Shown: one piece after another, positions 11,256 through 28,856 of the stretch
Layout: each line of letters opens with the position of its first letter
Position numbering within the stretch: position 1 is the first letter of the stretch
NCBI GenBank assembly: GCA_017853315.1
Contig: JAFMJW010000006.1
Span: forward strand, 1-44,868
Length of the DNA: 44,868 nucleotides
Source: Alphaproteobacteria bacterium
GTDB lineage: Bacteria; Desulfobacterota; Binatia; UBA12015
Reading direction: 5' to 3'
The notes under the pieces: model-generated
The model's input: the letters and a program-made list of their open reading frames with translations, nothing else
The model's database searches: none
Told to the model about the DNA's origin: nothing
Made by a program: the position numbers and the translations under genes

Positions 11256-11441
11256 GGCGTCGCTTCCTAGCGCACCGGGAGCGCGATGCCCATCGCGCCG
11301 CGGGTGAAGGCAGGGGCGGAGCCGTCGCCCCGGGGTCGAGATCGCCCGGGCTGCACGCGAGTCCGCGGCGCGAGCCCGCCGGCGTTTGGCCCCGCCCGGC
11401 CTTCGGGTATCCTGCGGCTGGGCGCCGCCGCCCGACGCGCC

Positions 11442-12908: not shown

Positions 12909-12951
12909 ACCCGGCGCGCTGCGGACGCGACCCCCGAGGGGCGCGCGCGCC

Positions 12952-13722
12952 TCAGCCGCGCAGCAGCGCGAGCACCGGCTCGCGGAGCGCGCGCGGCACG
13001 GCGATGCCCGAGTCGCCGTAGATCGTCGGGCTTCCGTCCCAGGCGAAGAACGCGCCGCCCGCCTCCTCCACGATCGGCACGACGGCGGCACTGTCCCAGG
13101 GGTTCAGCTGCGGATCCACCATCACCTCGGCGCGCCCGGTCGCGACCAGCGCGTAGCCGTAGCAGTCGCCCCAGCCGCGGTGACGGCCGACGCCGCGCAG
13201 CAGGCGCTCGAAGCCCGTCCAGCGCTCGCCGTAGTGCTGCGGGCGCGCGTCGCTCGTGAGCAGCGTCGCGTCGCCGAGGCTCGTCGCCGCCGACACCGAG
13301 ATGCGCTCGCCGTTGCAGAAGGCGCCCTGCCCCGTCGCCGCCCACAGGGTGCGGCCGAGCGCCGGCAGGCCGATCGCGCCCACCACGCAGCGACCCTCCT
13401 CCTCGAGGCCGACCAGCACGCCCCACAGCGGCACGCCGCGCACGAAGGACTGCGTGCCGTCGATCGGGTCGAGGATCCAGCGCCGGCCGCTGCGGCCCGG
13501 GCTCTCGCCGTGCTCCTCGCCGAGGATCCCGTCGTCGGGGAACGCCTGCGCGAGGTGGCGGCGCAGGATCTCCTCGGCGCCGCGATCGGCGATCGTGACC
13601 GGGCTCGCGTCGGCCTTGCGCTCGACCAGGAGGTCGCGGCCGAAGTGGTCGAGCGCGAAGCGACCGGCGAGGTCGACGGCCTCGCACGCGACGCGGAGCT
13701 CGCGGGAGCGATCGCGGGACAT
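12952..13722 (-). CDS. hisN: Inositol monophosphatase-family protein, probably histidinol-phosphatase
   Basis: The 256-residue product is a metal-dependent phosphatase of the IMPase family. Metal-ligand motifs are ILGEEHGE (about 66-73), WILDPIDGTQSFV (82-94) and NPWDSAAVVPIVEEAGG near the C-terminus. The GWGDCYGYALVATGRAEVMVDP segment is characteristic of the HisN-type histidinol-phosphate phosphatases, which complete histidine synthesis in many actinobacteria and delta-type proteobacteria. HisN is preferred over an inositol or fructose-bisphosphate phosphatase on that ground only. It starts 42 bases beyond the imuB stop codon and could share a transcript with the imuA-imuB genes. Confidence 0.85.
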   Translation of the reverse strand: MSRDRSRELRVACEAVDLAGRFALDHFGRDLLVERKADASPVTIADRGAEEILRRHLAQAFPDDGILGEEHGESPGRSGRRWILDPIDGTQSFVRGVPLWGVLVGLEEEGRCVVGAIGLPALGRTLWAATGQGAFCNGERISVSAATSLGDATLLTSDARPQHYGERWTGFERLLRGVGRHRGWGDCYGYALVATGRAEVMVDPQLNPWDSAAVVPIVEEAGGAFFAWDGSPTIYGDSGIAVPRALREPVLALLRG

Positions 13723-13764
13723 GGCGCCTGTTGCACACGCGACCCGCGGACGGTCAAGGCGCCG

Positions 13765-15396
13765 TCAGTCGTAACAGCCGTCGACCCACCAGGCGTCGGC
13801 CTCGCGGAACACCCGGTAGACGCCGCCGTCGGACAGCTGCACCTCCCAGTAGTCGCGCCGGCAGCGGGTCTCGCTCCACCACTCGGCGTCCACGCGCCAG
13901 GGCCCCGCCGCCGCCACCGTGCGTCCGCCGAAGCCGGCGGCGCGCAGGTAGGCGATCCGGCCCGCCTCGACGAAGACCTCGACCGGGCACGGCGGGCGGA
14001 TCGCGCGCAGCGCGATCGCCGGCGCAGCGAGGCCCTCGGGCGGCACCGGCTCGTCGACGCGGCGCGGGCCGGCGAAGTCCGACAGCGCGAAAGCCTCGGG
14101 CCGGTGCCCCGCGGACGGCACCGGGCGGCCGACGCGACCGGGGCCGCAGAGGGCGGCCACGCGGGCGAGCGTGGTCGCGAGCCGCGCGGGCGCCGGGCCG
14201 GCCGGGCGGAAGAGGTCGAGCTGGTCGGGGCGCGCGCGGTCGGGCAGCGCGGCCAGGCTCACCGCCTCGATCGCCGCCTGCGGCGGGTCGGACTCGAGCG
14301 CCGCGCGGACGAGCAGGGCCAGGCTCTTCACGTCGCGGGTCGGCGCGAGTACGCCGACCTCGCGCTCGACGCGCGAGCCGTCGTCGAGGCGCAGGGCGAG
14401 CGCGAGCCCGCGACAGGCGAGCGCCTGCATGCGCAGCCGGCCCGCGAGCCGGTCGACCAGGCCGCGCACCACGAACATGAGCGCCTCGAGCGAGGTCTCG
14501 CCGTACTCGAGGGAGGCGCCCTCGACGATCTCGACCGGCGGCGGGACCGGTACGAGCGGCTCGTCGTCGAGGCCGCGCGCGATGCGCCACAGCCGGGCGC
14601 CCGCGGCGCCGAAGCGCGTCGCGACGCTCGACGCGTCGAGGGCCGCGAACTCGCCCACCCGGCGCAGCCCCAGGCGTTCCATCTCGCCGCGCAGGCGGGG
14701 CCAGCCCGCCTGCGCGGCCCGGGCGCGTCGGCGCCCCGGCGCGCCCGGCTCTCCCCTGCCGTCGGCGACGACCGCGAGCACGTCGATCGACCGGGGCGCG
14801 AGCCAGGCCGCGTCGCCACCCGGCGGCACGACCAGCGCTTCGCCGCGGCGCGCGGCGAGCCCCGCCGCGATGCGGGCGGTCGCGCGGCGGTCGGCGATCG
14901 CGGCGCCGCCGCCCAGGCCGATCGCCGCCGAGCGGTACAGCAGGGCCGCGAGCAGGCCCTCGCTCGAGCCGTGCAGCCGGTCGAGGCCGTCCACGTCGAG
15001 GTGGAGCACGCCGCGCGCGCACCGCGGGTCGGTCGCCGCCGCCGGGTCCACCGACGGGAGGCCGCCCTCGATCTCGACGCGCGGCGAGATCGACGCGCCG
15101 ACCTCGAGGAGAGCCGCGCGCGCCGCGGCGAGCGAGACCGGGTCGAGCGGGCGCACGACGAGGTCGCTCGAAGCGCCGAGCGCCTGCGCGACGCTCGCCC
15201 CGACGCGGACACCGCGACGCTCGGCCTCCGGCGAGACCTCGACCAGCGGCGCGTGCGGGCGCACGCGTTCGGATGCGTCGCGCGCTCCCGACGCCACCTC
15301 GCAGACCGCGACCGGGCAGCCGCGCAACTCCGGCTCGGCACGGTGCAGTGCCGCGACCGCGAAGCGGGGGACGACGAGGCAGGCGACGCGTGGCAT
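13765..15396 (-). CDS. imuB: ImuB-type Y-family DNA polymerase homologue
   Basis: The 543-residue product is a non-catalytic relative of DinB polymerases. ImuB acts as a platform joining the beta clamp, ImuA and DnaE2 in damage-induced mutagenesis. The start MPRVACLVVPRFAVAAL aligns with the Y-family N-terminus, but hydrophobic residues stand where DinB has its first catalytic Asp, as known for ImuB. A later DPRCARGVLHLDVDGLDRLHG and HhH-like RLGLRRVGEFAALD are recognisable. PDQLDLFRP resembles a clamp-binding QLxLF motif. The C-terminal WWSETRCRRDYWEVQLSDG is typical. The frame is open upstream, but the ATG at 15396 begins the domain. No dnaE2 gene is nearby. Confidence 0.88.
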   Translation of the reverse strand: MPRVACLVVPRFAVAALHRAEPELRGCPVAVCEVASGARDASERVRPHAPLVEVSPEAERRGVRVGASVAQALGASSDLVVRPLDPVSLAAARAALLEVGASISPRVEIEGGLPSVDPAAATDPRCARGVLHLDVDGLDRLHGSSEGLLAALLYRSAAIGLGGGAAIADRRATARIAAGLAARRGEALVVPPGGDAAWLAPRSIDVLAVVADGRGEPGAPGRRRARAAQAGWPRLRGEMERLGLRRVGEFAALDASSVATRFGAAGARLWRIARGLDDEPLVPVPPPVEIVEGASLEYGETSLEALMFVVRGLVDRLAGRLRMQALACRGLALALRLDDGSRVEREVGVLAPTRDVKSLALLVRAALESDPPQAAIEAVSLAALPDRARPDQLDLFRPAGPAPARLATTLARVAALCGPGRVGRPVPSAGHRPEAFALSDFAGPRRVDEPVPPEGLAAPAIALRAIRPPCPVEVFVEAGRIAYLRAAGFGGRTVAAAGPWRVDAEWWSETRCRRDYWEVQLSDGGVYRVFREADAWWVDGCYD

Positions 15397-15422
15397 CGGG
15401 GAGAGGGCCGGTCGGGGGGAGC

Positions 15423-16229
15423 TCAGAGGTGGAGCTCGATTTCTCGCTCCGGCCGTCGCGAGCCGCGGCGGCGACCGACGAGGACGCGCGCGCGCATCCC
15501 GCGCAGCAGCGCGGGCGCGCCGCCGCGGCGATCCCAGAGGATCTCGGCCGGCCGCATTTCGAGGCGAAGCGACGCCGCGGTCGACGCCCCGCCGTCGCGG
15601 CGCAGCGCGAGCAGCGCCGTGCGCGAGCGCGAGCACGCGCGCGCGAGCCTCGTCCACGGCTGGGCGGTCGCGACGAGACGGGCGGCGTCGCGCGCGTGCG
15701 CCCCCCGCACCCCGGAGAGCCGGGGGCCGTGCGCTCGACCGCCGTCGCGAGCGGGACCGCCCGTCGCGACGGGCGGCGAGACGTCGAGCACGACCAGCGC
15801 GAAGCCGCCCAGGACGAGCAGTTGCTCGGCGGCCCCGAGCGCAGTGCGCAGGTCCGGCGGTCGCACCCAGAGGAGCGACTCCGGGTCGAGACCGGCCCCG
15901 AGCGATCCCACCGGGTCGAAGGCGTCGGCGGCATCGACCCAGGCCACCCATTCGCCCCGGGCGACCGCTCCCGCCGCGACGCGCAGGGCGAGACTCGTGA
16001 TGCCCGCCGAGCCGGTGCCCCGGACCTCGCTCAGGCAGGCCCGGGGGATGCCGCCGTCGAGAGCCTCGTCGAGAGGCCCGAGCCCCGTGGGCAGGCACTC
16101 GTCCCGCCCGACACGGGCCGGCGGCGCATGGCCGAGCCGGACCGTGCCGGGCAGGCGGGCGAGCAGTTCCTCGAGGCGAAGCGCGACCGACACGGCCGCG
16201 ATCTTCGTCTTTTCTTCGCCCCGAGGCAA
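15423..16229 (-). CDS. imuA: ImuA-like RecA-fold protein
   Basis: The 268-residue product resembles ImuA/SulA-like RecA relatives. It has CLPTGLGPLDEALDGGIPRACLSEV, the layout seen in RecA before the P-loop. Where RecA has GPESSGKTT, this protein has GTGSAGITS (residues 71-79): the Walker A lysine is Ile77, so ATP hydrolysis by the normal mechanism is unlikely. A Walker B-like ALVVLDVS follows. The C-terminus ends EREIELHL. The stop codon is 26 bases before imuB, so the two are probably cotranscribed and cooperate in translesion mutagenesis. I could not identify a LexA box upstream, where only 16 bases separate it from the sodC stop. Confidence 0.75.
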   Translation of the reverse strand: MPRGEEKTKIAAVSVALRLEELLARLPGTVRLGHAPPARVGRDECLPTGLGPLDEALDGGIPRACLSEVRGTGSAGITSLALRVAAGAVARGEWVAWVDAADAFDPVGSLGAGLDPESLLWVRPPDLRTALGAAEQLLVLGGFALVVLDVSPPVATGGPARDGGRAHGPRLSGVRGAHARDAARLVATAQPWTRLARACSRSRTALLALRRDGGASTAASLRLEMRPAEILWDRRGGAPALLRGMRARVLVGRRRGSRRPEREIELHL

Positions 16230-17748: not shown

Positions 17749-17824
17749 TCCCCGGTAGCTCAGTTGGTAGAGCAATCGGCTGTTAACCGATTGGTCGCTG
17801 GTTCGAGTCCGGCCCGGGGAGCCA
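17749..17824 (+). tRNA. tRNA-Asn (GUU)
   Basis: The 76 bases fold as a complete cloverleaf. The acceptor stem pairs TCCCCGG with CCGGGGA and is followed by discriminator G and an encoded CCA. The D arm contains AGCTCAGTTGGTAGAGC. The anticodon arm ATCGG-CTGTTAA-CCGAT places GTT at the anticodon positions, for Asn. The T arm has GGTTCGAGTCC. A strong terminator hairpin begins five bases after the CCA. This gene is the left boundary of the genomic island, a common integration target. Confidence 0.98.
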
Positions 17825-17854
17825 TTCATGCGGGGTCGCGGAAACGCGACCCCG
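17818..17854 (+). repeat. Left copy of the island-flanking direct repeat (probable attL)
   Basis: These 37 bases run from the last acceptor-stem bases of tRNA-Asn through its terminator hairpin. They match 35388-35424 at 35 of 37 positions (differences at 17826 and 17828), with an unbroken 26-base identity from 17829 to 17854. The two copies enclose the defence and metal-resistance genes, as expected for att sites made by site-specific integration at a tRNA 3' end. Confidence 0.75.
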
Positions 17855-17862
17855 CACCTTTT
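17829..17862 (+). terminator. Rho-independent terminator of tRNA-Asn
   Basis: A perfect 12-bp stem (GCGGGGTCGCG and its complement plus one T-A pair) closes a GAAA tetraloop and is followed by CCTTTT. It lies five bases after the tRNA. The same hairpin occurs at the far end of the island with a longer T tract. Confidence 0.9.
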
Positions 17863-17867
17863 AACAG

Positions 17868-17906
17868 CGGCCTCGGAGAGCGATCTCCGGGGCCGTTGTC
17901 TTTTCT
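17868..17906 (+). terminator. Second hairpin terminator behind tRNA-Asn
   Basis: A 12-bp stem (CGGCCTCGGAGA with TCTCCGGGGCCG, one G-T wobble) closes a GCGA loop at 17880-17883 and is followed by TTGTCTTTTCT. It directly follows the first terminator. It lies on the island side of the repeat and has no counterpart at the right end. Confidence 0.7.
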
Positions 17907-18203
17907 CCCCTGTTTCCCCGAGGGTTTGCGCGTGGGCGAGCGTCGCGCGCGCCGGGATGGCGTTCGCAAAGAGAGCGACGCGCGCGTGAAGACGAGCGCG
18001 TCGAGCGCGCGCGGGACGGCGTTCGCGCTCTCATCTCGGTCCCGTGGGGAGAGAGAAGCCGAGACGCGGTTAACAGCCGACCCTCGGTTTCCGGGACCGT
18101 GACCGGGCGATCAACCGTCCCGCGCGAGGTGGGACTGTTGATCAACGGGGCGCTGTCCCGCGCGAGCGCGGAACCGGCGCCCACGTTGGCGCGTGGCGCG
18201 CTG
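17907..18203. other. Non-coding left end of the island
   Basis: About 300 bases without a convincing gene. The stretch holds many CGCG-rich segments, an inverted copy of the tRNA-Asn anticodon stem (18067-18079) and a GTTGATCAAC palindrome at 18137-18146 with a further GATCAAC half-site at 18109-18115. These may be remnants of recombinase or regulator binding sites. Open frames here look like shadows with no recognisable protein. Confidence 0.5.
18067..18079 (-). repeat. Inverted copy of the tRNA-Asn anticodon stem-loop core
   Basis: CGGTTAACAGCCG at this position is the exact reverse complement of CGGCTGTTAACCG at 17777-17789 in the tRNA-Asn anticodon arm. The match is 13 bases. It may be a trace of the element's own attachment region or chance; see findings. 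Confidence 0.5.
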
Positions 18204-19199
18204 TCAGGCACCGGCCGCCCCTTCCGCTCGCCGCTCGCCGGACGGCGCGAACGGGCACAACGTGGGCGCGCACGTCGCGCAGGGGGCGCCACGTCCGGCA
18301 CACGCGTCCCCTCGCGCCACACGGTTCGACTTCGAGCAGAAGGTGTAAAGCGCCTCCTGAACGAGCCTCGGCGAGTACGCGGGCAGCTCGGGCGCGAACA
18401 GGCGGAGGTCGAGTCTCGAAGCCTGCTCGCGCACCCACCGCTCGCGCGCGTCGTAGGTCTTGGCCGCGCCGCGCGCGCGGAGAGCGTCGACCGCGCGCGC
18501 GACGTTCGTGTCGACGACCACCAGCTCGTTGCCGTCAACTTCCGGGAACCAGGGCGTGAGACCCGGAGCCAGCGCAGGCGTCGAGAGCGCGCTCACGAAC
18601 ATCGTCGCGAGCTTGCGCCCGACGCGATGCACGGCGGCGAACCGCTCAACGAGGAGCACGGCGCGCCTCGTGGGTGACGGCTCCTCGCGGCAGACGTCGT
18701 CGAGCAGCGCTTTCACCCCACCGCCCCGCCAGAGTCGAAGCCACGCTGAGGTCGGCAGCTTGCCCATGTCGCCCATGCGGTTGAAGACGCGCGTTGCGTC
18801 CTTTACGTGGCAGGACTCACCAGGGCACGTGGCGCACTCGACGTCGTCGCCGTCCTTCACGACGTCGCAGCCTTCCTCGAAGGCCTCGACGGAGTGCAGC
18901 GTCGGGCAGGCGTGCCGCGCGATCGACCGCTTCAGCGTCGCGACGTCGGCGACGACGCGCATCGAGGAGCGCGGCAGCGAGCGCTGCTGGCGCATGATCA
19001 CGACGTCGCGCAGCGCCTGGTACATTGAGAGCGTGACGAAGAGCCTGAACACGGCGGCGTCGGTGCCCGCCCCGAGCTCGTCGGGCTCGATGGCGAACGC
19101 TCCGATACGGGTCGGGTCGCAGTAGAACGGCACGCCCTCGCTGCGCGCCTCGTCGAAGTACCAGCGGACGATGGCTTTGGTCTCCTTGAGGACGCGCAT
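18204..19199 (-). CDS. HhH-GPD DNA glycosylase-like protein with Fe-S cluster motif
   Basis: The 331-residue product has features of endonuclease III relatives. The hairpin motif region HRVGRKLATMFVSAL (191-205) keeps the lysine (Lys196) used by Nth for lyase chemistry, and VVVDTNVARAVDAL keeps the catalytic Asp (Asp230). At the C-terminus Cys300, 307, 310 and 315 form C-x6-C-x2-C-x4-C, close to the Nth Fe-S loop (C-x6-C-x2-C-x5-C). A further cysteine group, ECATCPGESC, lies at 121-130. The start overlaps the stop of the protease gene by one base (TGATG). In a defence operon it may recognise or excise modified bases in foreign DNA; that role is inference. Confidence 0.7.
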   Translation of the reverse strand: MRVLKETKAIVRWYFDEARSEGVPFYCDPTRIGAFAIEPDELGAGTDAAVFRLFVTLSMYQALRDVVIMRQQRSLPRSSMRVVADVATLKRSIARHACPTLHSVEAFEEGCDVVKDGDDVECATCPGESCHVKDATRVFNRMGDMGKLPTSAWLRLWRGGGVKALLDDVCREEPSPTRRAVLLVERFAAVHRVGRKLATMFVSALSTPALAPGLTPWFPEVDGNELVVVDTNVARAVDALRARGAAKTYDARERWVREQASRLDLRLFAPELPAYSPRLVQEALYTFCSKSNRVARGDACAGRGAPCATCAPTLCPFAPSGERRAEGAAGA

Positions 19200-22018
19200 C
19201 AGCCCCTCTGCTTGATGCGGGCGCGCTGCGTGGCCCTTGGCCTGATGCGCGTCTGGAGTTCCTGGTGGATGTCGACCGTCGCATCCTCGTGCCAGAGCCG
19301 AACCGCGAGCCCGTACCACTGCTCCGCTTCCACGCCGTGCGCGAACCGATTCTGGCAGCCGACGAGAACATGCAGCGTCGGCTCCGTCTCGCCATCGACC
19401 TTGGTGAGCTGCGGCGCCTTCTGCCATTCGATTCGACGCACCTGGAGCGTTGACCAGACGAGGTCCCGCTTCGAGGGGCGAAGTCCGAGCTGGTTCTTCT
19501 GTGGAAGCGACGGCCCCTGTTCAGCCGCACCCGGAGTCTGTCGGCCACGGAACGCGGCGATCTGGTCGCCCGAGATGCCCTTGAGAACCTCGAGCCACAT
19601 CGTGCGCGCGAGGTAGTCCTTCCTCGAAGAACGCACGGGCGGATCATAGGCAAGCGACACCACCATCCCGCGACGCCCCTTGCCGGAGAGAAACGCGGGC
19701 GGGACCTTCACCGAGTAGACGTGCCAGTTGTCCTCTGCCACGACGTCCTCCGCGAGCAGCACTGTGCTGTTGCGGCGGGAGTGCTCGACAAGATCTGCAT
19801 CGACCGCCCCGTAGCCGACGAGCCGAAGCTTCTCCCAGCTCTCGTCGCCCTCGGGGTCCAGGAGCCATTCCTGGGGACACGGCGGCAAGACTGTGCAGGC
19901 GCCAAGGAGCGCGCGGACCGTGTTCGCGGAAGCGGGCTCATCGAGAATCGTCGAGGCGGCTTCGAGCGCGAGCGCTGCGCTGTGCGTGATGTGAGGAGCC
20001 GCAAGCGAGGTCCCGAGCCCTGACGTGAGATGTCTGCCCGTGGTGCCGGGCAGTCCCGTCGTCGGCTCGCCAAGATGAGGGTCCAGACCCGCACGCCTGT
20101 TCGCAGTGAGATCGGGCACCCAGGACAGCGACCCACCCGCGAAGGTTCTCAACCCGAAGTTCCCACCATAGGCCACCACGTCGGGCTTCACGGAGCGCTG
20201 GCTCGCCTTGGCTTCGTAGCCCGGCCCCACTCGCGAAAACGGCGCTGGGGCCCCTACCGGGGCAGCGGCAACCGTCCCGCTGGTGTGAGGAGCATCGGAG
20301 CGGGCCAAGGCTCCAACCGTGATCGCGATGCCAGCGGTGCCCGGGGTACAAATCCTCGTCGTCGACTCCCGCAACCGAGCGTCTCGAACGGACGCTTGCA
20401 GGGCATCGCGACCCGAGGCCGAACCGTCCGGCAGCGGAGGTACATCGACGTTCCCGGCACTGACCACGATGACGATATCGAGCTCGCGCGCCAGTTGGTC
20501 GAGCACCTCGGCCCACGCGAATTGGCGCCCTCCCGCATAGACCTGCGCGGAGTCGCCTGCCGAGAGATTGAACACGCGGCATTGCTGGTGTTGGTGCAGA
20601 TACCGAATGGCGGCCTCGACGAGCTTTTCGGGGCGGTGCCCGTCCGGGAATCGAGTGCCCCCGTCGTCCCGGCGCATGAGGACCTTCCCGCTCGCCACCA
20701 GAACACGTGGCGTCCACGCGTTCGTCGAGATGCAGCGGTGAACATCACCGTACACGACGAGCCCGGTCACCTGCGTCCCGTGCCCTTGCTGATCCGATGA
20801 CCCCTCCCCGGAGAAGTCGACCTCGGAGAGCACCCAGTTCTGCAGCAAGGGATGCCCACTCAGCGTGCCGCTGTCGATGACTCCCACGCGCGGCTCCGAG
20901 CCCGTCGGTGTCGGCGGGGTTGGGAGCGCCTGCGTCGGGTCGAGGACCACTGCGTAGGCTGGCGACAAGACAGGCGGCAGCTCCACCAGCGCGACGAGAT
21001 CGAGGTCGAGCAGCGCCTCTGCCAGCGCGCGGGTGGCCTTGATGCGAGCGAGGATCAGACTCTGCGTCCTCAGCTCGTCGATGTACTCGCCGCGATGTCG
21101 CGAGCACAGCGCGCGCAGCGCGGTGATGACTTCGTTGGCCGTCTGCCCGCCCGAGTGCCAGAGGTCGACATCAAGCTCAAACGTCGGTGTCGTCGGGAGC
21201 TGCTCACGAGCGAGGCGAGGCCCCGTTCGGTCTGCGCGCGTCCTCGCGCCCGACCATTCCAGCGCGTCGAAGAGGCGGGCTCTAACACCGGGCGGGATGT
21301 CGCCCTGGCCCTCGTCGCCTCGCCGGTACCGATCGAGTTCCCGCTGGAACGACGTCACGTCTTGTTGCGCCGGGAACTGCACCGTCACGCGCGACACCTG
21401 CTGCTTCGCCGGTAGCGTCGCGACCTGGTTCACCAAGGCGGCCCGTAGTGCTGCCTCCACTGACGCAGGCCACGTCGCGCGCTCGAGGACGGCCAGTTTG
21501 GAAGCGTCCGTGTGGCGGAAGGTCGGGTCAGCCCTCTTGGCCGTTTCGAGGTCGTTCTTCGTCGCCGAGCGAATGCGAAGTTGCTCCTGCGCCTCATCGG
21601 TTTGAACGAGGTGGGTCGCGATGGCGGTGTTGAGCGTGTCAACCGTCTGCCTCGCGGGGAGCTGCACCAGGCGACGCTGGGTGGCGCGGCTCTCCACCTG
21701 TTCATCCACCACCGTCGCGTGAAACCGGCTCTCGAGGACCTCGCGGATCGACGAGTCCCAGCTTCGCAGCTCGAGGACCAGAAGGCGGTCCGCCGCGATG
21801 CCCTGCGCGGTTCGCGTAGCCTGTGTCTGCGTGACGGCGTTCTGGACGCTGTCGGCGACCTGGCCACCGTGCCCGCCGCGCCCGATGACCTTGGGAGGCT
21901 GCGGTGGCGGGTTCCCTCTGCGGCGCTCCCCAGCGATGTCCTCGCGATCGATTGCGAGATGCCGAACGGGCGGCGGCGGCCCGCTCGGCATCAAGGACAT
22001 CTGGGCGCGCGAGGTCAC
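19199..22018 (-). CDS. Subtilisin-like (S8) serine protease, IetS-like
   Basis: The 939-residue product has an N-terminal region of about 370 residues of unknown fold, then an S8 protease domain. The catalytic triad is Asp382 (VGVIDSGT), His413 (QGHGTQVTGL) and Ser671 (GTSLAAPH); the oxyanion-region Asn lies in VSAGNVD. A C-terminal domain of about 200 residues follows. There is no signal peptide, so it is probably cytoplasmic. The gene overlaps the AAA ATPase gene by four bases (ATGA). An AAA ATPase next to a subtilase is the composition of the IetAS anti-phage system, so it may act as a death effector or cleave phage proteins once triggered. Confidence 0.88.
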   Translation of the reverse strand: MTSRAQMSLMPSGPPPPVRHLAIDREDIAGERRRGNPPPQPPKVIGRGGHGGQVADSVQNAVTQTQATRTAQGIAADRLLVLELRSWDSSIREVLESRFHATVVDEQVESRATQRRLVQLPARQTVDTLNTAIATHLVQTDEAQEQLRIRSATKNDLETAKRADPTFRHTDASKLAVLERATWPASVEAALRAALVNQVATLPAKQQVSRVTVQFPAQQDVTSFQRELDRYRRGDEGQGDIPPGVRARLFDALEWSGARTRADRTGPRLAREQLPTTPTFELDVDLWHSGGQTANEVITALRALCSRHRGEYIDELRTQSLILARIKATRALAEALLDLDLVALVELPPVLSPAYAVVLDPTQALPTPPTPTGSEPRVGVIDSGTLSGHPLLQNWVLSEVDFSGEGSSDQQGHGTQVTGLVVYGDVHRCISTNAWTPRVLVASGKVLMRRDDGGTRFPDGHRPEKLVEAAIRYLHQHQQCRVFNLSAGDSAQVYAGGRQFAWAEVLDQLARELDIVIVVSAGNVDVPPLPDGSASGRDALQASVRDARLRESTTRICTPGTAGIAITVGALARSDAPHTSGTVAAAPVGAPAPFSRVGPGYEAKASQRSVKPDVVAYGGNFGLRTFAGGSLSWVPDLTANRRAGLDPHLGEPTTGLPGTTGRHLTSGLGTSLAAPHITHSAALALEAASTILDEPASANTVRALLGACTVLPPCPQEWLLDPEGDESWEKLRLVGYGAVDADLVEHSRRNSTVLLAEDVVAEDNWHVYSVKVPPAFLSGKGRRGMVVSLAYDPPVRSSRKDYLARTMWLEVLKGISGDQIAAFRGRQTPGAAEQGPSLPQKNQLGLRPSKRDLVWSTLQVRRIEWQKAPQLTKVDGETEPTLHVLVGCQNRFAHGVEAEQWYGLAVRLWHEDATVDIHQELQTRIRPRATQRARIKQRG

Positions 22019-23049
22019 TTGCGGTCCACCAAGGGCGCCCCCTCACCGGGAGCAGCCCGCTTGAGTACCGTTCGACGATAGGCGAAGCGCTCGAGCGCCG
22101 CCTCCACGTCGGCCGAGCGCAGCGTCTGGCTGCCATCGAGGGCGCATGCCTTCCGAGCGTCGAGGCACACGCGCTCGGCGTCGGCGAAGCTGGCACCGGC
22201 GAGCTTCGTGACGAGCCCGCTCACCTGCTTCGTGTTCGTTCGGAGCGGCCGGAGCCGCTTCGTCACGAGCGCCTTGAGTGCCTCCTTGTTCGGGAGGTCC
22301 AGCCGCAGGACGTCGTCGAAGCGGCGCCAGATGGCCGGGTCGAGAGCCTGCTCGAAGTTGGTCGCCGCGATGATGAGCGAGCGACCGTTGAAGCTGTCGA
22401 GGAGCTGGAGGAACGAGTTCACGACGCGCTTGATCTCGCCGTGCTCGGTCGCGTCGTCACGCGAGCGCCCGATGGCGTCGAACTCGTCGAAGAAGATGAC
22501 CCACTGCCCGCGCGCGGCGTAGTCGAAGACCTTGCGAAGGTTCGCCGCGGTCTCGCCCAGCAAAGACGACACCACGCTGTCGAAGCGCACGTAAAGGAGC
22601 GGCAGCGCAAGCTCGGCAGCGAGCGCTTCTGCCGAGGCCGTCTTCCCGCATCCTGAAGGACCGCACAGAAGCAAGCGCCGCGTCGGGGCGAGCGCGTTCG
22701 CTTCAAGGATCTCCCAGCCGCGCACCTCCTTGAGCACGCGGTCGAGCGACGCGCGAACGCCGGGGGCCAACACGAGGTCCTCGAAATAGCGCTCGGGCGT
22801 GCGCACCGTGAGCAGCGGCGTCCGCCGCTCGCTGTCCATCGGCACCGGATCGAACGCGGGTTTCGTGCCCCGCAGGTCTTCCATCGAGCGCACGCCGTTC
22901 GACAGGATGCGCTGCAGCTCGTTGGCCACCACGGCGTGGTGCTTCTTGCGCTCGTCTTCCACGAGCTCGTTCGCGGTCAGGCGGAAGGCCTGGTCGTCAC
23001 GTCGCTGGTAGGCCTCGAAGAGTCTCTTGAGCAAGTCGGCGCGTGCCAT
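22015..23049 (-). CDS. AAA-family ATPase, IetA-like
   Basis: The 344-residue product has one AAA module: Walker A GPSGCGKT (130-137), Walker B VIFFDEFDAIG (184-194), sensor-1 IIAATN (226-231) and arginines in WRRFDD (241-246). A helical C-terminal lid ends with DVEAALERFAYRR. The N-terminal 90 residues are charged and probably helical. It resembles COG0464 ATPases that accompany subtilases in IetAS. The start at 23049 is chosen because ATG overlaps the mcrC-like stop by one base (TGATG); the open frame extends further. It probably controls the protease or remodels its target. Confidence 0.88.
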   Translation of the reverse strand: MARADLLKRLFEAYQRRDDQAFRLTANELVEDERKKHHAVVANELQRILSNGVRSMEDLRGTKPAFDPVPMDSERRTPLLTVRTPERYFEDLVLAPGVRASLDRVLKEVRGWEILEANALAPTRRLLLCGPSGCGKTASAEALAAELALPLLYVRFDSVVSSLLGETAANLRKVFDYAARGQWVIFFDEFDAIGRSRDDATEHGEIKRVVNSFLQLLDSFNGRSLIIAATNFEQALDPAIWRRFDDVLRLDLPNKEALKALVTKRLRPLRTNTKQVSGLVTKLAGASFADAERVCLDARKACALDGSQTLRSADVEAALERFAYRRTVLKRAAPGEGAPLVDRK

Positions 23050-24374
23050 CAGCGCGCTCCGAGCTGGTTCGCACCCGAGATCACTCGGGGTGAAACCGAA
23101 GGCGCGACGGGCAGCGGCCACCACCGCTTGACCGTGCCGTCGAGGAGGTCGTCGACCGGAACGCCCACAAGCCGGATGCGTACCTGCTGGCCCGCTGCCG
23201 AGGGCGCGAAGAGCAGCGTCGTCGCACGCTCGAACTCGCCTCGCGCCAGTGGATGAAGGAGCAGCACCTCGCGCGGCTCAGGCATCGCGTAGGCCAGCCC
23301 GTAGGTCGTGAGCTGGTACAACTCTGCCGACGACGGCGGGTTCTCGTGCCGATTCTTGTACTTCGCATCCGCGACGGCGACGATCTGCTTGCGGCGGCGG
23401 AAGACAAAGTCGGGGCGGATCGTGGGCTGGTTCCAGCCCCCGACGTTTTCGAGGTAGCTGAAGACATCGGAGCGCACGTCCTGCATGCCGATGCGCACGT
23501 CATCGGGAGAGTGCTCAGACAGGTAGCGCCCGAGGAAGCGCTCGAAGACCATGTTCATGTTGAGCGTGAAGCTCGAGAGCGGCATCGCGCCGGCCTCGAC
23601 GTGCTCGCCGAGGCGCGCACCGTGGTGGATGAGCGCGATGAGCGTCAGCGCGGTTCGGTAGTGGCTCGACCGACGATCGAGGCCGGAGAGCATCGCTTCG
23701 AGCCAGTCCGTACTGAGCGGGCGCCGTTCGAGGTCGCCGAAAAAGCGGTCGGCTGAGCGGGCGAGATCGAGTCGGAGATCGCGCGAGTCCATCACCGACG
23801 CCGCAAGGCGAAGGCCTGCGGCCAAGACCTGGTTCAGCTCGTGGTCAACGGTCAGATCGTCGTAGGTGCAGCGCAGGGTCGCCCGGCGCGGGTGCGTTGC
23901 GATGTGGCGTAGGTCGAGGCGGCCGCGCGGCGTGGCGAGGTCCTCGTTGCGCGATTGGTACGTCGGCAGCAGCCCGCCTCGGACGATGCGCTCGACGGCT
24001 CGAAGCAGCGAAAGCCCGAGAAGGTCAACGAGCCCGTGTTCCGCGCTCTCGTAGGTGGTGCGCGTCTCCGTGACGAGCAGGTCCGAGAGGTCGAAGGCGT
24101 AGGCCACCATCCGCATCAGGTTGTCGAGGCGCAGCTTCGGCAGGATGACGAGCCGCATCGAGCTGAGATTCACGGTGCCGATGTGCGGGCCGACGGACAC
24201 CGAGAGCCCCGAGCGTAGCTCCGTGAAGCGCAGGCTCGCGCGGCCCTCCAGTTCCGCAATCAGCTCGCGGTCGGCAGCAGAGAGGCGCACGTCGCGAAGG
24301 AGCGCGCCAGCACCCGGCGTGTCGGGCGTGGTGCTGCTCCACTCGCGAACCTGCAGAACAGGAGGTGGGGTCAT
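23049..24374 (-). CDS. McrC-like restriction component with PD-(D/E)xK nuclease site
   Basis: The 441-residue product resembles McrC (5-methylcytosine restriction system component). The N-terminal half has the family-like beta-rich region (GLSVSVGPHIGTVNL, LRLVILPKL) and the LATPRGRLDL segment. The C-terminal half has a nuclease core RPDFVF...AVADAKYK, with Asp322, Asp336 and Lys338. In classical McrBC this subunit cleaves DNA and needs the GTPase McrB. No McrB is encoded here; the next gene is a different type of AAA ATPase. Its ATG overlaps the stop of the truncated upstream frame by four bases, so a gene once preceded it in the operon. Confidence 0.85.
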   Translation of the reverse strand: MTPPPVLQVREWSSTTPDTPGAGALLRDVRLSAADRELIAELEGRASLRFTELRSGLSVSVGPHIGTVNLSSMRLVILPKLRLDNLMRMVAYAFDLSDLLVTETRTTYESAEHGLVDLLGLSLLRAVERIVRGGLLPTYQSRNEDLATPRGRLDLRHIATHPRRATLRCTYDDLTVDHELNQVLAAGLRLAASVMDSRDLRLDLARSADRFFGDLERRPLSTDWLEAMLSGLDRRSSHYRTALTLIALIHHGARLGEHVEAGAMPLSSFTLNMNMVFERFLGRYLSEHSPDDVRIGMQDVRSDVFSYLENVGGWNQPTIRPDFVFRRRKQIVAVADAKYKNRHENPPSSAELYQLTTYGLAYAMPEPREVLLLHPLARGEFERATTLLFAPSAAGQQVRIRLVGVPVDDLLDGTVKRWWPLPVAPSVSPRVISGANQLGAR

Positions 24375-24583
24375 GCCTTCGGCCCCTCGTCATCGTGCGC
24401 CTCTTCGAGGTCCTCATCGTCCGGCAGGTCCTCACCAAGCACGGCGTCGTGCTTCTTATCGTCCGGGGTGACGATGGCGGTGAGCGCTTGGGCGAGCGCG
24501 TCTTCGCGGCCCGGCTCGAACAGCTCGAAGCGCAGGTTCGCCGTCTCGCGATCGAACACGCCGCCCTGGTGAGGTACTCGAGG
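24371..24583 (-). pseudogene. 3' remnant of an unknown gene upstream of the mcrC-like gene
   Basis: This frame ends in ATGA overlap with the mcrC-like start and encodes an acidic tail: VFDRETANLRFELFEPG, then TAIVTPDDKKHDAVLG and a run of Asp/Glu ending DDEGPKA. Codon use fits the strand and the spacing fits the operon. Upstream of about 24583 the frame becomes an anti-sense-like, Arg/Pro-rich sequence, whereas a neighbouring frame reads as the start of a transporter. I interpret it as the C-terminal end of a lost first operon gene. The family is not recognisable from the fragment, and McrB cannot be confirmed. Confidence 0.5.
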
Positions 24584-24681
24584 CGCAGCGCGCGGTTCAC
24601 CGCCTCCGGCCGGAGGTCGGGTTCTGATGCGCCGCAGGCGGTGTGGCATCCGCAGGACGTGGCTGGGGCGATGGTCTCCAT
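24568..24681 (-). pseudogene. 5' fragment of a probable cation transporter
   Basis: An ATG at 24681-24679 starts METIAPATSCGCHTACGASE and continues to PEAVNRALRLEYLT, then loses homology. The Cys-rich start followed by an RALRLEYLT-type segment is how I recall cation transporters of heavy-metal islands beginning, just before their first membrane span. The transporter body is missing. The fragment is divergent from the blaI-type gene and would have used the same regulatory region. It abuts the remnant of the defence operon, so the junction lies near 24570-24585. Assignment is from motif memory only. Confidence 0.45.
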
Positions 24682-24776: not shown

Positions 24777-25193
24777 GTGACGTTCCGCCTTCGCTCAGGG
24801 AAGAAGGGCCTCGAACTCCGTCTTCACGACCTCGAGGCGACCATCATGGACGTGGTGTGGGGCAAGCAGCTCTCCTCCTTCGCCGTCGGCGACGTGCTCG
24901 CCATCCTCGAGAAGCAGCGGGACATCGCCTACACCACGGTGATGACGACCGTGACGCGGCTGTACGAGAAGGGGATCCTCGAGCGCGAGCGCGACGGCAA
25001 GCGCTACCTGTACTCGCCCAAGCTCAGTCGGGAGGAGTTCCTGCAGTCGACGGCGCGCGAGGTGTTGGACGAGGCGGTCGGTGGCCATCAAGCGATGGCC
25101 ATGCTGGCGGAGAAGGTCTCTGAGGCGTCGGCCGGCGAGCTCGATGACCTCGAGGCGCTCATCCAGAAGCGACGAGAGGAACTCGACGCGTGA
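24777..25193 (+). CDS. BlaI/MecI/CopY-family transcriptional repressor
   Basis: The 138-residue product has the winged-helix domain of this family: LHDLEATIMDVVWGKQLSSF, then a recognition-helix region IAYTTVMTTVTRLYEKGILERERDGKRYLYSP. The C-terminal helices (about 85-138) form the dimerisation and protease-sensitive region. In this family, derepression follows cleavage by an M56 membrane protease, or metal binding in CopY. The next gene encodes an M56-type protease and overlaps it by four bases (GTGA). The GTG start is preceded by CAGGAG. It probably binds the two palindromes at 24735 and 26255. Confidence 0.9.
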   Translation: MTFRLRSGKKGLELRLHDLEATIMDVVWGKQLSSFAVGDVLAILEKQRDIAYTTVMTTVTRLYEKGILERERDGKRYLYSPKLSREEFLQSTAREVLDEAVGGHQAMAMLAEKVSEASAGELDDLEALIQKRREELDA

Positions 25194-26212
25194 TCGAGGC
25201 GACCTTCCCGCTGCTCGGCACGGCGTTCGTCGTGCTCATCGTGCTCCCCGCGTTCGCGTTGCTCGCGAAGGCGGGTCTCGTGACGCTCGAGCGCGACGAG
25301 GCGGGAGGGCCGCTTCATGGCCTCAACCTTCGCTACGTGCTGCTGACCGGGTCGAGCGCGCTCCCCATCGCGTGGCTTCTCTCCGCGGGCCTGCATCAGG
25401 CCGAGACCGGAAAGTCGGCGCTCGCGTGCCTGTTCGATCACGACACCGCTGAGCTGTGCTTCGAGCCTGGCTTCTTCGCCCTCGTGCTGGCGGCTGCCAT
25501 CTTTGCCTCGTCGATCGGCGTCGTGCGGAAGCATCGAGGCGCACGAGCCTCTTCGACTGACGCCGCACGCACGCTCGTTCGACGTGTCGCGCGCATCATC
25601 GCGAGCGATCCCGCGCTCGCCGGCCTTCACGATCGCGTCGTCGCCACCGACGACGTGGGCTTCGCCCTCGGCACCCACGGGTTGCTCAAGCCGCGCGTGT
25701 TCATCGGCACCGATTTCGCCGCTCGGCTCTCCGACGAGATGCTCGCGAGCGCGCTCGGGCACGAGGCCGAGCACCTCCGCGCCCTCGACCCACTGCGCTA
25801 TCTCATCCTTCAGCTCGCGCTCGCTGTGAATCCGTTCGGGCGGTTCTTGCTCGAGCCGCACGCCGCTCGCTGGCGGGCCGCTCGCGAGGCGCACTGTGAC
25901 CGCGAGGCCGTTATTCACGGCGCGGCGCCGCTCCCGCTCGCGGACGCCATCGTGAGAGCGGCGCGGCCCGGAGCTCGCGAGGCCGTCGCGCTCGGCGCGC
26001 GTGACACCGCAGTCCTCCGGTTGCGCATCGGGATGCTGCTCGCCTTCTCCGAACGCACTCCCGCTCGCTGCTGTCACCAGGGTCCGTCGGCCTTCCCGGT
26101 GGCGTTCGTCCTCCTGCTCATCGCGCTGCTTCTGCCGCATCAAACCGGCACCGCCGCGCTCGATGTGCTCCACACGGGCGCAGAGCACGCGCTCACCTAC
26201 TTCTGGCGCTGA
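25190..26212 (+). CDS. BlaR1-type M56 membrane metalloprotease
   Basis: The 340-residue product has several N-terminal membrane helices (about residues 5-30, 45-70 and 92-112) and a zinc protease domain. HEAEH (191-195) is the HExxH site, and Glu233 in REAHCDREA is the probable third ligand. A C-terminal hydrophobic helix (VAFVLLLIALLL) follows. Unlike BlaR1 and MecR1 there is no penicillin-binding sensor domain, so the signal is probably sensed differently, perhaps as metal. It would cleave the neighbouring repressor and release the efflux genes. GTG start with four-base overlap. Confidence 0.8.
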   Translation: MIEATFPLLGTAFVVLIVLPAFALLAKAGLVTLERDEAGGPLHGLNLRYVLLTGSSALPIAWLLSAGLHQAETGKSALACLFDHDTAELCFEPGFFALVLAAAIFASSIGVVRKHRGARASSTDAARTLVRRVARIIASDPALAGLHDRVVATDDVGFALGTHGLLKPRVFIGTDFAARLSDEMLASALGHEAEHLRALDPLRYLILQLALAVNPFGRFLLEPHAARWRAAREAHCDREAVIHGAAPLPLADAIVRAARPGAREAVALGARDTAVLRLRIGMLLAFSERTPARCCHQGPSAFPVAFVLLLIALLLPHQTGTAALDVLHTGAEHALTYFWR

Positions 26213-26220
26213 GGAACTCG

Positions 26221-27660
26221 ATGGCCCGATCGCACCGTACACGCTTGCCTTCAACTACTATGGCGCATAGTAACAGCGCGGTCGCGGCGGCGTTCTCGCT
26301 CCTCGTCGGCGCATGCGCGCACGCCGCTCCGACGAGGAGCGCCGTCGACGCTCGCGAGGCACCGCCGCCTCATCTGCGCGGACCTGCCGTCGGCGGCGCT
26401 GACCTCGGACATGCCGAGCACACGGATCCGGTCCCGGACCCTGCGGCCGGAGGCGAAGTTTCGTTGGGCGGCATTCTTGCCTTCGCGGATCAGCATTCGC
26501 CGGTGCTCACGGTCGCGCGGAGCACGCGCTCTCGGGCCGAAGCCGCGCGCGTCGCTGCGTCCATCCTCCTCCCTACAAACCCGGAGGTCACCGCTGCCGT
26601 AGGACCTCGATTCGGCATCCAGGGAACGGGCGTCGACGTCGATATCATTCTGATGCAGCAAATCCAGATCGCCGGTGAACGAGGCGCGAGGCTCGACGCG
26701 GCCGACCGCCTACGGGAGCTCACGGACGCCGAGATCGAGCAGATCCGCTGGGCCGTCCACACCGACGTCCACGCGGCGTTTCACCGCGCACTCGTGGAGC
26801 AAGAGCGAGCTCGGCTCGCTGGGCGCGTCGTCACGTTTCAAGAGGACGTGCTTCGAGTGGTCGAGGGGCAGATCTCCGCCGGAGAGACCGCGCCGCTCAC
26901 GCTTCGCCTCGCGCAGGCAGAGGTCGCCCAGGCGCGCCAGACGCAGGTCGCCGCGGAGCAGGCGTTCCTCGCGTCGCGCATTCGCCTCGCGCAGCTCTCC
27001 GGCTGGCCCGTGAGCTCGCCGCCCACGCCCGCGGGCACCGTGGACCAGCCGCGCGATCCGCCCTTGCTCGAGCAACTCCTCGCCGTCGCGCGCGAGCGCC
27101 TCCCGAGCTTGCGCGCCGCGGTGGCGCGGATCCGTGAGGCGGAGGCGCGCGTCACGGTGGCGAACCGTGAGGCGTGGCCACGCCCTTCGATCGGCGTGCA
27201 GTACCGCCGTGAGGGGAACCCGACGGCTGAAGGCGCCTACGACATCGTGATGGGCGTCCTGTCGATCCCCATCCCGACCTTTCAGACGAACCAAGGCGAC
27301 CGTGCCCGCGCTCGGGCGGACGTGACCGTCGCCGAAGCCGAGCTCGAGGCCGCCCAGAGATTGCTCGAGGGGCAGATCGCCGAGGCCCGCAGCGAGGTCG
27401 TCGCGGCGGCGCAGCGCACGAGGACCTACGGCACGGAGATCCTGCCGCGCTTCGAGGAGAACCTGACGATGCTGCGCCGCGCGTTCGAGCTCGGCGAGAT
27501 CGATCTGCTCGCGCTCTCCACGGGCCGCGAGCGTTTCCTGCGCATCCAGAGCGACGCCCTCGGCGCGCAGCTCGACTACTTCGTCGCGCTCGCCGCGCTC
27601 GAGCGCATCGTCGGTGTCGACCTTTGGCGCGATGACCACCACGAGGAGAGCACCCCATGA
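26221..27660 (+). CDS. czcC: Outer-membrane efflux protein (TolC/CzcC-like lipoprotein)
   Basis: The 479-residue product is an outer-membrane factor of a tripartite RND pump. A basic start is followed by a lipoprotein-type signal (AFSLLVGAC). The mature part has the repeated helical OMF pattern: SRAEAARVAASILLPTNPEV, QISAGETAPLTLRLAQAEVAQ, and a second repeat with TFQTNQGDRARARADVTVAE and FELGEIDLLALSTGRERFL. The ATG at 26221 follows GAGGA and gives a normal n-region; an alternative ATG at 26260 lies inside an operator palindrome. Its stop overlaps the start of the adaptor gene (ATGA). The symbol indicates the class, not proven orthology. Confidence 0.87.
   Translation: MARSHRTRLPSTTMAHSNSAVAAAFSLLVGACAHAAPTRSAVDAREAPPPHLRGPAVGGADLGHAEHTDPVPDPAAGGEVSLGGILAFADQHSPVLTVARSTRSRAEAARVAASILLPTNPEVTAAVGPRFGIQGTGVDVDIILMQQIQIAGERGARLDAADRLRELTDAEIEQIRWAVHTDVHAAFHRALVEQERARLAGRVVTFQEDVLRVVEGQISAGETAPLTLRLAQAEVAQARQTQVAAEQAFLASRIRLAQLSGWPVSSPPTPAGTVDQPRDPPLLEQLLAVARERLPSLRAAVARIREAEARVTVANREAWPRPSIGVQYRREGNPTAEGAYDIVMGVLSIPIPTFQTNQGDRARARADVTVAEAELEAAQRLLEGQIAEARSEVVAAAQRTRTYGTEILPRFEENLTMLRRAFELGEIDLLALSTGRERFLRIQSDALGAQLDYFVALAALERIVGVDLWRDDHHEESTP
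26255..26273 (+). promoter_or_regulatory. Operator palindrome 2 (BlaI/CopY type)
   Basis: CTACTAT-GGCGC-ATAGTAA is an inverted repeat of 7-base arms with one mismatch. It shares the 10-mer CAACTACTAT with the site at 24732. It lies within the first codons of the outer-membrane gene, so it may act as an internal roadblock or mark a second promoter for the pump genes. Confidence 0.55.
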
Positions 27661-28844
27661 GCCGCCGCATCCTGGTTTCTATCCTATTCATCGCGCTCGC
27701 CGGGCTGACGGCCGCCTGCAACAAGGGCGGCGGCGAAGCGGAGCAGGACGAGCACGGTCACGAAGAGGGCGCTCACGGGGAAGAAGAGGGCCACCGCGAG
27801 GCAGGGCACGAGAACGAGGTCCGCCTGTCCCCCGAAGCCCAGGAGCGCGCCGGAATCCGTATGGGCGTGGTCGAGCGGCGGGCTCTCACCGGAGGCGTCG
27901 CCATCCCTGCGGAGGTGCAGTTCGAACCGAGCAGCACTGCTCACGTCGGGCCGCTCGTGCCCGGACGCATCACCAAGGTGACAGTCGCGCTCGGCGATCG
28001 AGTGCGACGCGGACAATTGCTCGGGGTCGTGGCATCGAGCGACGTGTCCGAGGCGCGCGCTCGCCTCGATCAAGCCCGCGCGAGGCTCTCCGCGGCCGAA
28101 GCGACCCTGACGCGCCAGCAGCAGCTCTCGACCGAAGGCATTGGCGCGCAACGGTCGCTGATCGACGCGGAGGCCCAGGTCGGCGAGCTCCGCGCCGAGG
28201 TCGCCGGACTTCGCCGCCAGCTCTCCGTGTTCGGCTCCGGCAACGCGGGCGAGCTGGCCCTGACCGCGCCGATCGACGGCGTCGTCGTGGCCCTGCACGC
28301 GACCCTCGGTGAAACCGCCAAACCGGACGAGCCGGCGTTCATCGTCACGGACCCCACCAAGGTCTGGATCCGCGGCAACGTGCCCGAGCTCGAGATCAGC
28401 CGCGTGCAGATGGGCTCCGGCGCGATCGTCCGGCTGCACGCGTTCCCCGACCTCGCCATGACCGGAACCATCACCTACGTCGCGCCCGCGCTCGAAGAGA
28501 GGACCCGTTCCCTGCCTGTGCGCGTCACCATAGAGAACCCGGACGCGCGACTGCGGAGCGGGCTATTCGGCAGCATCGAGTTGCTCGGCGGCCGCGCGGA
28601 CGAGCGCGTGCTGGTCGTCCCGGCAGAAGCCGTGGCGTCGCTCGACGGTCAGACGGTCGTCTTCGTCCCCGCCGACGAGCCCGACACGTTTCGGCCCCAG
28701 CCGGTGGCGCTCGGACGGCACGCTGGCGGCTTCTTCGAGGTTCGCTCCGGGTTCGAAGAAGGGGCGCGCCTGGCGACGAGCGGCGCGTTCACGCTGAAGA
28801 GCGCCCTGCGCAGCAGCGAGCTCTCCGAAGGCCACTCTCACTGA
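27657..28844 (+). CDS. czcB: RND efflux periplasmic adaptor (CzcB-like lipoprotein)
   Basis: The 395-residue product is a membrane-fusion protein linking inner-membrane pump and outer-membrane channel. A lipoprotein signal ends LTAAC. A long His/Glu-rich stretch follows (HGHEEGAHGEEEGH...), and the C-terminus ends EGHSH; both suit metal capture. The lipoyl-like halves are PGRITKVTVALGDRVRRGQLLG and LTAPIDGVVVALHATLGE, separated by an alpha-hairpin (ARARLDQARARLSAAEATL...). The start overlaps the upstream stop by four bases. The His-rich ends argue for a metal pump rather than a drug pump. Confidence 0.9.
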   Translation: MSRRILVSILFIALAGLTAACNKGGGEAEQDEHGHEEGAHGEEEGHREAGHENEVRLSPEAQERAGIRMGVVERRALTGGVAIPAEVQFEPSSTAHVGPLVPGRITKVTVALGDRVRRGQLLGVVASSDVSEARARLDQARARLSAAEATLTRQQQLSTEGIGAQRSLIDAEAQVGELRAEVAGLRRQLSVFGSGNAGELALTAPIDGVVVALHATLGETAKPDEPAFIVTDPTKVWIRGNVPELEISRVQMGSGAIVRLHAFPDLAMTGTITYVAPALEERTRSLPVRVTIENPDARLRSGLFGSIELLGGRADERVLVVPAEAVASLDGQTVVFVPADEPDTFRPQPVALGRHAGGFFEVRSGFEEGARLATSGAFTLKSALRSSELSEGHSH

Positions 28845-28856
28845 GGACCGATCGCC

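Follow-up and report, generated by a model that had tools for sequence, protein, structure and literature searches.

IetAS, an AAA+ ATPase paired with an S8 subtilase, is named by NCBIfam as an anti-phage ATPase/protease pair, and the homologous S026-S025 pair of SGI1 is called a functional toxin-antitoxin system in the consulted portion of one report (PMC5006074). McrBC is a type IV restriction system, and EndoIII and MutY are HhH-GPD (helix-hairpin-helix, HhH), 4Fe-4S DNA glycosylases. Glycosylases are also known from defence islands: in the excerpts consulted, many Brig1 enzymes lie there, often with BREX/Pgl, Brig1 is described as primarily monofunctional (PMC11078745), and both Brig1 and Brig3 are assigned to the uracil-DNA-glycosylase (UDG) superfamily or traced back to it (PMC11078745; PMC13160076). 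Here we analysed a stretch of 44,868 nucleotides (nt) of contig JAFMJW010000006.1, hereafter the window, in which positions 18204-24374 of the minus strand encode a McrC-like nuclease, IetA, IetS and an unnamed, Nth-like HhH/iron-sulfur (Fe-S) protein. Judged by sequence comparison, this locus is fairly probably an IetAS operon that carries a decayed McrBC system and a transferable, probably DNA-acting, Nth-like module. The defence operon would thus be drawn from three sources, possibly at a tRNA-bounded island edge.

The four open frames run leftward with short overlaps, in line with the initial annotation. They encode the McrC-like PD-(D/E)xK nuclease (24374-23049; 441 amino acids), IetA (23049-22015; 344 amino acids from the ATG at 23049), IetS (22018-19199; 939 amino acids) and, as the last operon gene, the HhH/Fe-S protein (19199-18204; 331 amino acids). 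Read directly, the McrC/IetA and IetS/HhH junctions are both TGATG, as had been reported, but the IetA/IetS junction, given earlier as ATGA, is GTGA, a 4-nt overlap. The ATGA instead joins the stop of a further frame upstream (24712-24371) to the McrC start, and a fifth, truncated gene had therefore been missed. IetS probably starts at its GTG, with a downstream ATG as a possible alternative, and for the HhH protein 19199 is the most likely start, in preference to the longer frame from 19427. The catalytic residues singled out earlier are all in place: S671 of IetS (GTSLAAPH at 669), D336 of McrC (DAKYK at 336), K196 of the HhH protein (RVGRKLA at 192) and K136 of IetA, counted from the ATG at 23049 (GPSGCGKT lies at 155 of the longer frame). 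The G+C content of the operon is 68.1%, as compared to 74.3% in the left flank and 70.1% in the right flank.

The central pair has the composition of IetAS, as had been proposed. IetA matches Pfam AAA (E 5.5e-29) and PADLOC IetA (1.7e-91), while IetS matches Pfam Peptidase_S8 (6.5e-31) and PADLOC IetS (3.1e-96); both fit the PADLOC profiles over most of their length, and the genes are adjacent. The Walker A (GPSGCGKT) and Walker B (FFDEFD) motifs of IetA are kept, as are the D/H/S catalytic motifs of IetS (VIDSGT, GHGTQVTG and GTSLAAPH). Neither protein reaches its NCBIfam equivalog cut-off (IteA, 252 of 510 bits; IteS, 98.8 of 900 bits), and scores so far below the cut-offs point to a divergent branch. 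Unlike IetAS, the window operon adds two further genes and a remnant of McrB. The toxin-antitoxin designation of the SGI1 pair would fit an addiction module in which the window IetAS retains the island and its neighbours hitch-hike. However, NCBIfam calls the family an anti-phage pair, and addiction and defence are not exclusive; we regard this explanation as unlikely but not negligible.

The HhH protein has no family match in Pfam, PADLOC or NCBIfam (PHROGs lay outside this search), and it was placed by profile comparison. A profile of the whole family (A4, built without the frame-shifted locus L046) matched a set of 13 EndoIII/MutY proteins with a probability of 75.8% (P 2.3e-5), the best of three A4 targets and uncorrected, as against 0.1-1.4% for six unrelated alignments, on which the sub-profiles reached at most 2.0%. 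The 13 target proteins (4 EndoIII-like, 9 MutY-like) came from 30 loci of related genomes and had to show both the hairpin motif and a Cx6Cx2Cx5C cluster; six loci had the hairpin without the cluster, and the rest failed. In the resulting alignment, K196 and D230 coincide with the lysine and the aspartate of EndoIII, respectively, and the C-terminal four cysteines (C300/C307/C310/C315) with the Fe-S ligands. A relaxed alignment reaches the N-terminal half and places D65 on the EndoIII aspartate near the barrel start, with the glutamine one position off. K196, D230, Q61 and D65 are invariant in all 20 aligned members, as are seven of the eight cysteines; the remaining one, C307, is kept in 19 of 20.

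The HhH protein resembles EndoIII/MutY in its aligned Lys/Asp pair and C-terminal four-cysteine cluster, and differs from them in its cysteine spacing (Cx6Cx2Cx4C), in about 100 more residues and in a second cysteine set (C98/C111/C122/C130), which is invariant in 20 of 20 members and lacks a counterpart in the EndoIII/MutY sequences used. Its chemistry would be excision, sensing or repair, and the intact Lys/Asp pair favours a bifunctional glycosylase/lyase. The protein would resemble Brig1 and Brig3 as a predicted, HhH-type counterpart of glycosylases in defence islands, as far as these are covered by the excerpts consulted (PMC11078745; PMC13160076), but it differs from these UDG-superfamily enzymes in its fold type and in the lysine of a bifunctional lyase. 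By analogy, Brig1 offers a precedent from another superfamily for such a protein in defence. Membership in the aGPT-Pplase family, which acts in phage thymine hypermodification, was rejected at 0.1-0.6% probability against SN1_020 and SN1_024, a weak test because the targets were single sequences.

The HhH family comprises 21 loci including the window. Eight relatives were found in the genome_contigs set, one of them (L046) broken by frame shifts, one in a viral contig at 60% identity, and 14 in the 282 genomes of the phylum of genome G395, of which 11 were new and three already found. In the window's own phylum, one of 395 genomes was recovered with the single protein and one of 198 with profile A4, both times the window's own; scans of two other phyla gave one of 129 genomes (phylum of G400) and one of eight (phylum of G401), in each case a genome already known. 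The family is rare outside the phylum of G395. No match was found in plasmids, the divergent profile A3 found none in viral contigs, and a divergent member gave chance-level matches only against phages and plasmids. One phage tblastn match (H74, E=1) is not spanned by any long open frame and was taken as chance.

Defence or defence-like genes lie in the same stretch at 20 of the 21 loci (19 of the 20 other than the window), and at 14 of the 21 a recognised defence gene or nuclease stands directly upstream on the same strand. At six of these 14 (the window, L042, L075, L080, L081 and L082), the HhH start codon, chosen by us for these counts, overlaps the upstream stop by 1-4 nt. The defence role proposed by the initial annotation is thereby suggested for the HhH gene by its neighbours at other loci. 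None of the 20 other loci, in stretches of 3.5 to 21 kb each, contains IetA, IetS or McrC.

The partners differ from locus to locus. In the window IetS lies directly upstream, whereas L039 (1509-19250) has the BREX genes PglX, BrxH, PglZ and BrxA in front of the HhH gene and Hma-like genes behind it on the other strand; L046 has a BrxA-like frame, 39% identical to that of L039, with no Pfam match. HmaC stands in front of the HhH gene in L044, as called by PADLOC, and in L043 and L041, whose proteins are 68% and 55% identical to that of L044; HmaA-B-C is present in L073. In L042, a methylase, an SNF2 helicase, a second methylase, GmrSD_N and HEPN precede the HhH gene, which overlaps with ATGA; L072 has the second methylase and HEPN as in L042 (74% and 67%), and L040 has a HEPN neighbour. 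The methylase-GmrSD_N-HEPN unit is kept in two genomes (L042:6450-9974 and L072:3044-6595; the SNF2 helicase adjoins it in L042), and might constitute a separate defence system. L045 has a ResIII helicase and an SMC-like ATPase in front of the HhH gene, and L011 a C5 methylase, a Vsr-type nuclease, a ThsB-type TIR protein and IS3-type transposase frames (by eye).

The remaining partners belong mostly to Druantia. DruA lies in front of the HhH gene in L075, L077, L079, L080 and L081; L078 has DruA and, behind the HhH gene, a 2099-residue DEAD/MZB helicase; L076 has DruA/SspF-like, SspG-like and DndH-like genes in front; and L082 has a PD-(D/E)xK nuclease directly in front, with DruE-like and SNF2/DEAD helicases further up. 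At all 8 loci of the divergent HhH clade, DruA or DruE lies in the same stretch. However, DruA and DruE were found beside this clade only, no Druantia model matched any of the four window genes, and none of the 20 HhH members matched any PADLOC model, Druantia included. HATPase, DruA and HhH genes recur as a unit in L075, L077, L080 and L081, the HATPase frame being partial in the first two of these loci; the unit is a possible stable variant of Druantia type I.

Several results weigh against the favoured reading of the locus as IetAS with a transferable Nth-like module. The combination of IetAS with the HhH gene was seen only once, in the window. As for the relationship to EndoIII/MutY, the figure of 75.8%, picked from three targets, falls to 60.8% for the MutY-like part and 33.1% for the EndoIII-like part; other pairs of sub-profile and target range from 77% down to 0.7%, and the default A4 alignment covers residues 187-320 only. 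Pfam HhH-GPD stays below its curated cut-off and matches one of nine close members (E 0.21; the divergent members were not run), profile A2 matched no sequence of a solved structure, and an AlphaFold2 model from nine close sequences had a predicted local distance difference test score of 45, too low for the model to be used. As for the neighbours, L045 and L046 count as defence-like on weak grounds, and no defence neighbour was recognised in L074, where three frames were scanned. The HhH gene is convergent to Hma in L073 and divergent from DruA in L078, two opposite-strand genes intervene in L072 and a small frame in L045, and the HhH gene is not always last, with close same-strand genes after it in L041, L074, L075 and L078. 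The same defence queries gave no match in 30 HhH-GPD loci of EndoIII/MutY type (15 genomes, about 1.5 kb per side), a control that is biased, some of the queries having been drawn from the HhH loci themselves.

On the favoured reading, IetA probably restrains the subtilase IetS, a mechanism that we infer for a known family, and a phage cue would free IetS proteolysis so that infection or growth is stopped. The HhH gene, translationally coupled to IetS, would add a further layer. Its product most likely acts on DNA, either as a base-excision glycosylase and apurinic/apyrimidinic lyase or as a sensor that shares the DNA-binding fold of such enzymes, and would counter phages whose modified or damaged DNA lets them escape the core system. 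Since the gene occurs beside many defence systems, its target would be foreign or damaged DNA during infection. The activity, substrate and anti-phage effect given here are predictions from the conserved residues and the genomic context.

A target in host DNA was weighed as well, the HhH protein then repairing harm done by the defence systems themselves. Such a role would be served by the EndoIII-like profile match and the intact Lys/Asp pair, and many of the partner systems contain DNA methylases or nucleases, L011 having both a Vsr-type nuclease and a C5 methylase. IetAS, however, is not known to include a DNA-modifying enzyme, and other HhH-GPD proteins are already encoded by the host (G000, 4 matches), so that a host-repair role appears rather improbable.

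In a tree of 20 members, with L046 left out, the 8 Druantia-linked rows form a separate clade with full support. Among the remaining members, L074 branches first, followed by three Hma loci. The HhH proteins of L039, L042, L072 and L044 are 72-78% identical to that of the window, and their partners are BREX in L039, the methylase/GmrSD/HEPN genes in both L042 and L072, and Hma in L044, as compared to IetAS in the window. Because 12 of the 17 inner forks are weak (not starred), the order of these partner exchanges is not readable from the tree. The window and L039 are 81% identical in DNA from the 26th base of the HhH gene onwards, with no blastn match upstream.

The similarity continues beyond the gene. 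A tRNA-Asn (GTT) lies at 17749-17824 on the plus strand, its 3' end being separated from the HhH stop by 379 nt, and the DNA 3' of the HhH gene at 17818-18097 is 81% identical over 285 nt to L039 (10996-11274), is shared in part with L045 (11002-11151), and ends at the 3' end of the tRNA. This segment, kept between distant hosts, is a possible attachment edge of an island. No tRNA was found in the nine of the 20 other HhH loci that were scanned. A tRNA-Lys-like stretch, read by eye and not called by ARAGORN, follows the HhH gene in L011 (8945-9185). In L042 the gene is followed by a tyrosine integrase.

The HhH gene might accordingly be a passenger or mobility gene at a tRNA-type island edge, ahead of which defence operons land by chance. 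The tRNA-Asn and the shared downstream DNA of about 285 nt would fit such a gene, as would the integrase of L042 and the tRNA-like stretch of L011. Against it stand the absence of a tRNA from the nine other loci scanned, the start/stop overlaps of the HhH gene with differing upstream genes, the recurrence of the DruA-HhH order in a divergent clade and the conservation of the glycosylase residues. We therefore consider a passenger gene improbable, and retain the transferable, DNA-acting module as the preferred reading.

The module may also be viewed more broadly. More tentatively, and with somewhat less than an even chance in our estimate, the unnamed Nth-like family with its two Cys4 sets would be a general transferable immune add-on, shared by five or more defence systems with distinct mechanisms. 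As a base-excision effector or sensor it would be plugged, often via translational coupling, into IetAS, BREX, Hma, methylase/GmrSD/HEPN and Druantia operons, and would provide unrelated systems with a common second line of defence against phage DNA that is modified or damaged. If the protein is a glycosylase, the HhH/Fe-S superfamily joins the defence glycosylases, of which Brig1 and Brig3 belong to the UDG superfamily. Defence catalogues score core genes, so that a gene with no PADLOC match and below the Pfam cut-offs would be overlooked despite its recurrence. Among the matches listed, titles and abstract openings hold no report that IetAS, BREX, Hma or Druantia operons contain an HhH/Nth-like gene (subscription literature was mostly outside this scope), and the words glycosylase, HhH and iron-sulfur had no match in PMC12458937. 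The family raises the testable question of whether unrelated defence systems share an interchangeable effector or sensor.

At the other end of the operon, the McrC-like protein (23049-24374) matches Pfam McrBC (PF10117, 4.4e-35) and carries the PD-(D/E)xK motif as RPDFVF and DAKYK. The frame upstream of it ends like a McrB protein: over 56 amino acids its tail shares 71% identity (E 2.4e-25) with the C-terminal end of the McrB-like frame in L137/L146, and the same tail is found at 59% in G554, ahead of a McrC 65% identical to that of the window. What remains of McrB in the window is the last ~65 codons and the stop (24371-24568), which overlaps the McrC start; the Walker motifs are gone, and the remnant is joined in another frame to the start of an unrelated gene (24569-24681). 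The latter we take by eye to resemble the N-terminus of a CDF-type cation transporter; a search gave no telling match and left this unconfirmed. Thus, unlike McrBC, with which it shares the nuclease and the end of the upstream frame, the window system is incomplete. These ~65 codons are the only McrB sequence at the locus (other contigs of the genome lay outside the search), and with McrB deleted to this extent the window McrC is probably an orphan, the leftover of a decayed McrBC. A McrB-free variant of McrC was ruled out by the remnant directly upstream, and the McrC without McrB that the initial annotation had listed as an extra component is explained by the loss of McrB.

The McrC of G579 is a homologue, 78% identical in the genome search and 74% by tblastn; directly upstream lies a frame of 792 residues with GPPGTGKT and MNTADRS, of McrB type by its motifs alone. 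After this McrC comes an IetA start, 35% identical over 81 residues of the longer IetA frame (E 1.7e-5), where the matching ends. This order, McrB-McrC-IetA start, recurs once, in L146, where IetA is itself truncated, and that junction was thus not made in the window's genome alone. The stretches around McrC in G554 and G478 contain no IetA. In the phylum of G395, 7 of 187 genomes carry a McrC relative at E<=1e-10; viral contigs contain none. Plasmid matches are distant (13 records), the one in an Azospirillum plasmid having a full-length frame upstream with Walker and MNTADRS motifs (read by eye), and the McrB tail has no match in plasmids. In G554, the McrC C-terminus is present a second time as a broken copy (L147:13162-13465), about 2.5 kb away from the intact copy.

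The initial annotation had proposed that modified DNA is recognised by the glycosylase-like and McrC-like proteins, with the protease under the control of the ATPase, a scheme that has gene order as its only evidence. One integrated four-part machine, in which McrC and the HhH protein detect or process modified DNA and so license IetA/IetS, would fit the overlapping genes and the recurrence of McrB-McrC followed by an IetA start in L146, but IetAS or McrC is present at none of the 20 other HhH loci, McrC or HhH at none of the 19 longer-flank IetA loci, and McrB is gone but for its tail, which makes this scheme very doubtful. Its own check, recurrence of the four-gene order in other genomes, found no second case in our sample.

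IetA is itself widespread. In the window's phylum, 27 of 395 genomes, the window's own included, contain relatives at E<=1e-40, as do 31 of 282 genomes of the phylum of G395; 563 plasmid records (E<=1e-30) and 5 viral contigs also contain them. The 19 loci with longer flanks, some cut by contig ends, comprise the 5 viral loci and 14 of the 59 genomic matches other than the window, and none has a McrC or HhH relative. The same is true of 27 short IetA loci (L012-L038; about 1.5 kb per side where the contig allows), 5 of which are among the 14. One IetA locus, L136, is the far end of the contig bearing the HhH locus L039, with about 19 kb between IetA and the HhH gene. In the viral loci L007, L008 and L010, the frames upstream of 8001, in front of IetA, look by eye like large serine recombinases, which suggests that IetAS is carried there by serine-recombinase elements.

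Beyond the operon, frames at 10374-16229 on the minus strand, left of the tRNA, resemble what we take by eye to be a DnaE2/ImuB/ImuA mutagenesis cassette. Divergent to the operon, at 24777-34492 on the plus strand, lie BlaI/MecI-like regulator, M56-like protease, TolC-like, HlyD-like and RND-like frames (by eye). After the McrB deletion, the defence operon may now be read from the promoter region of these divergent frames.

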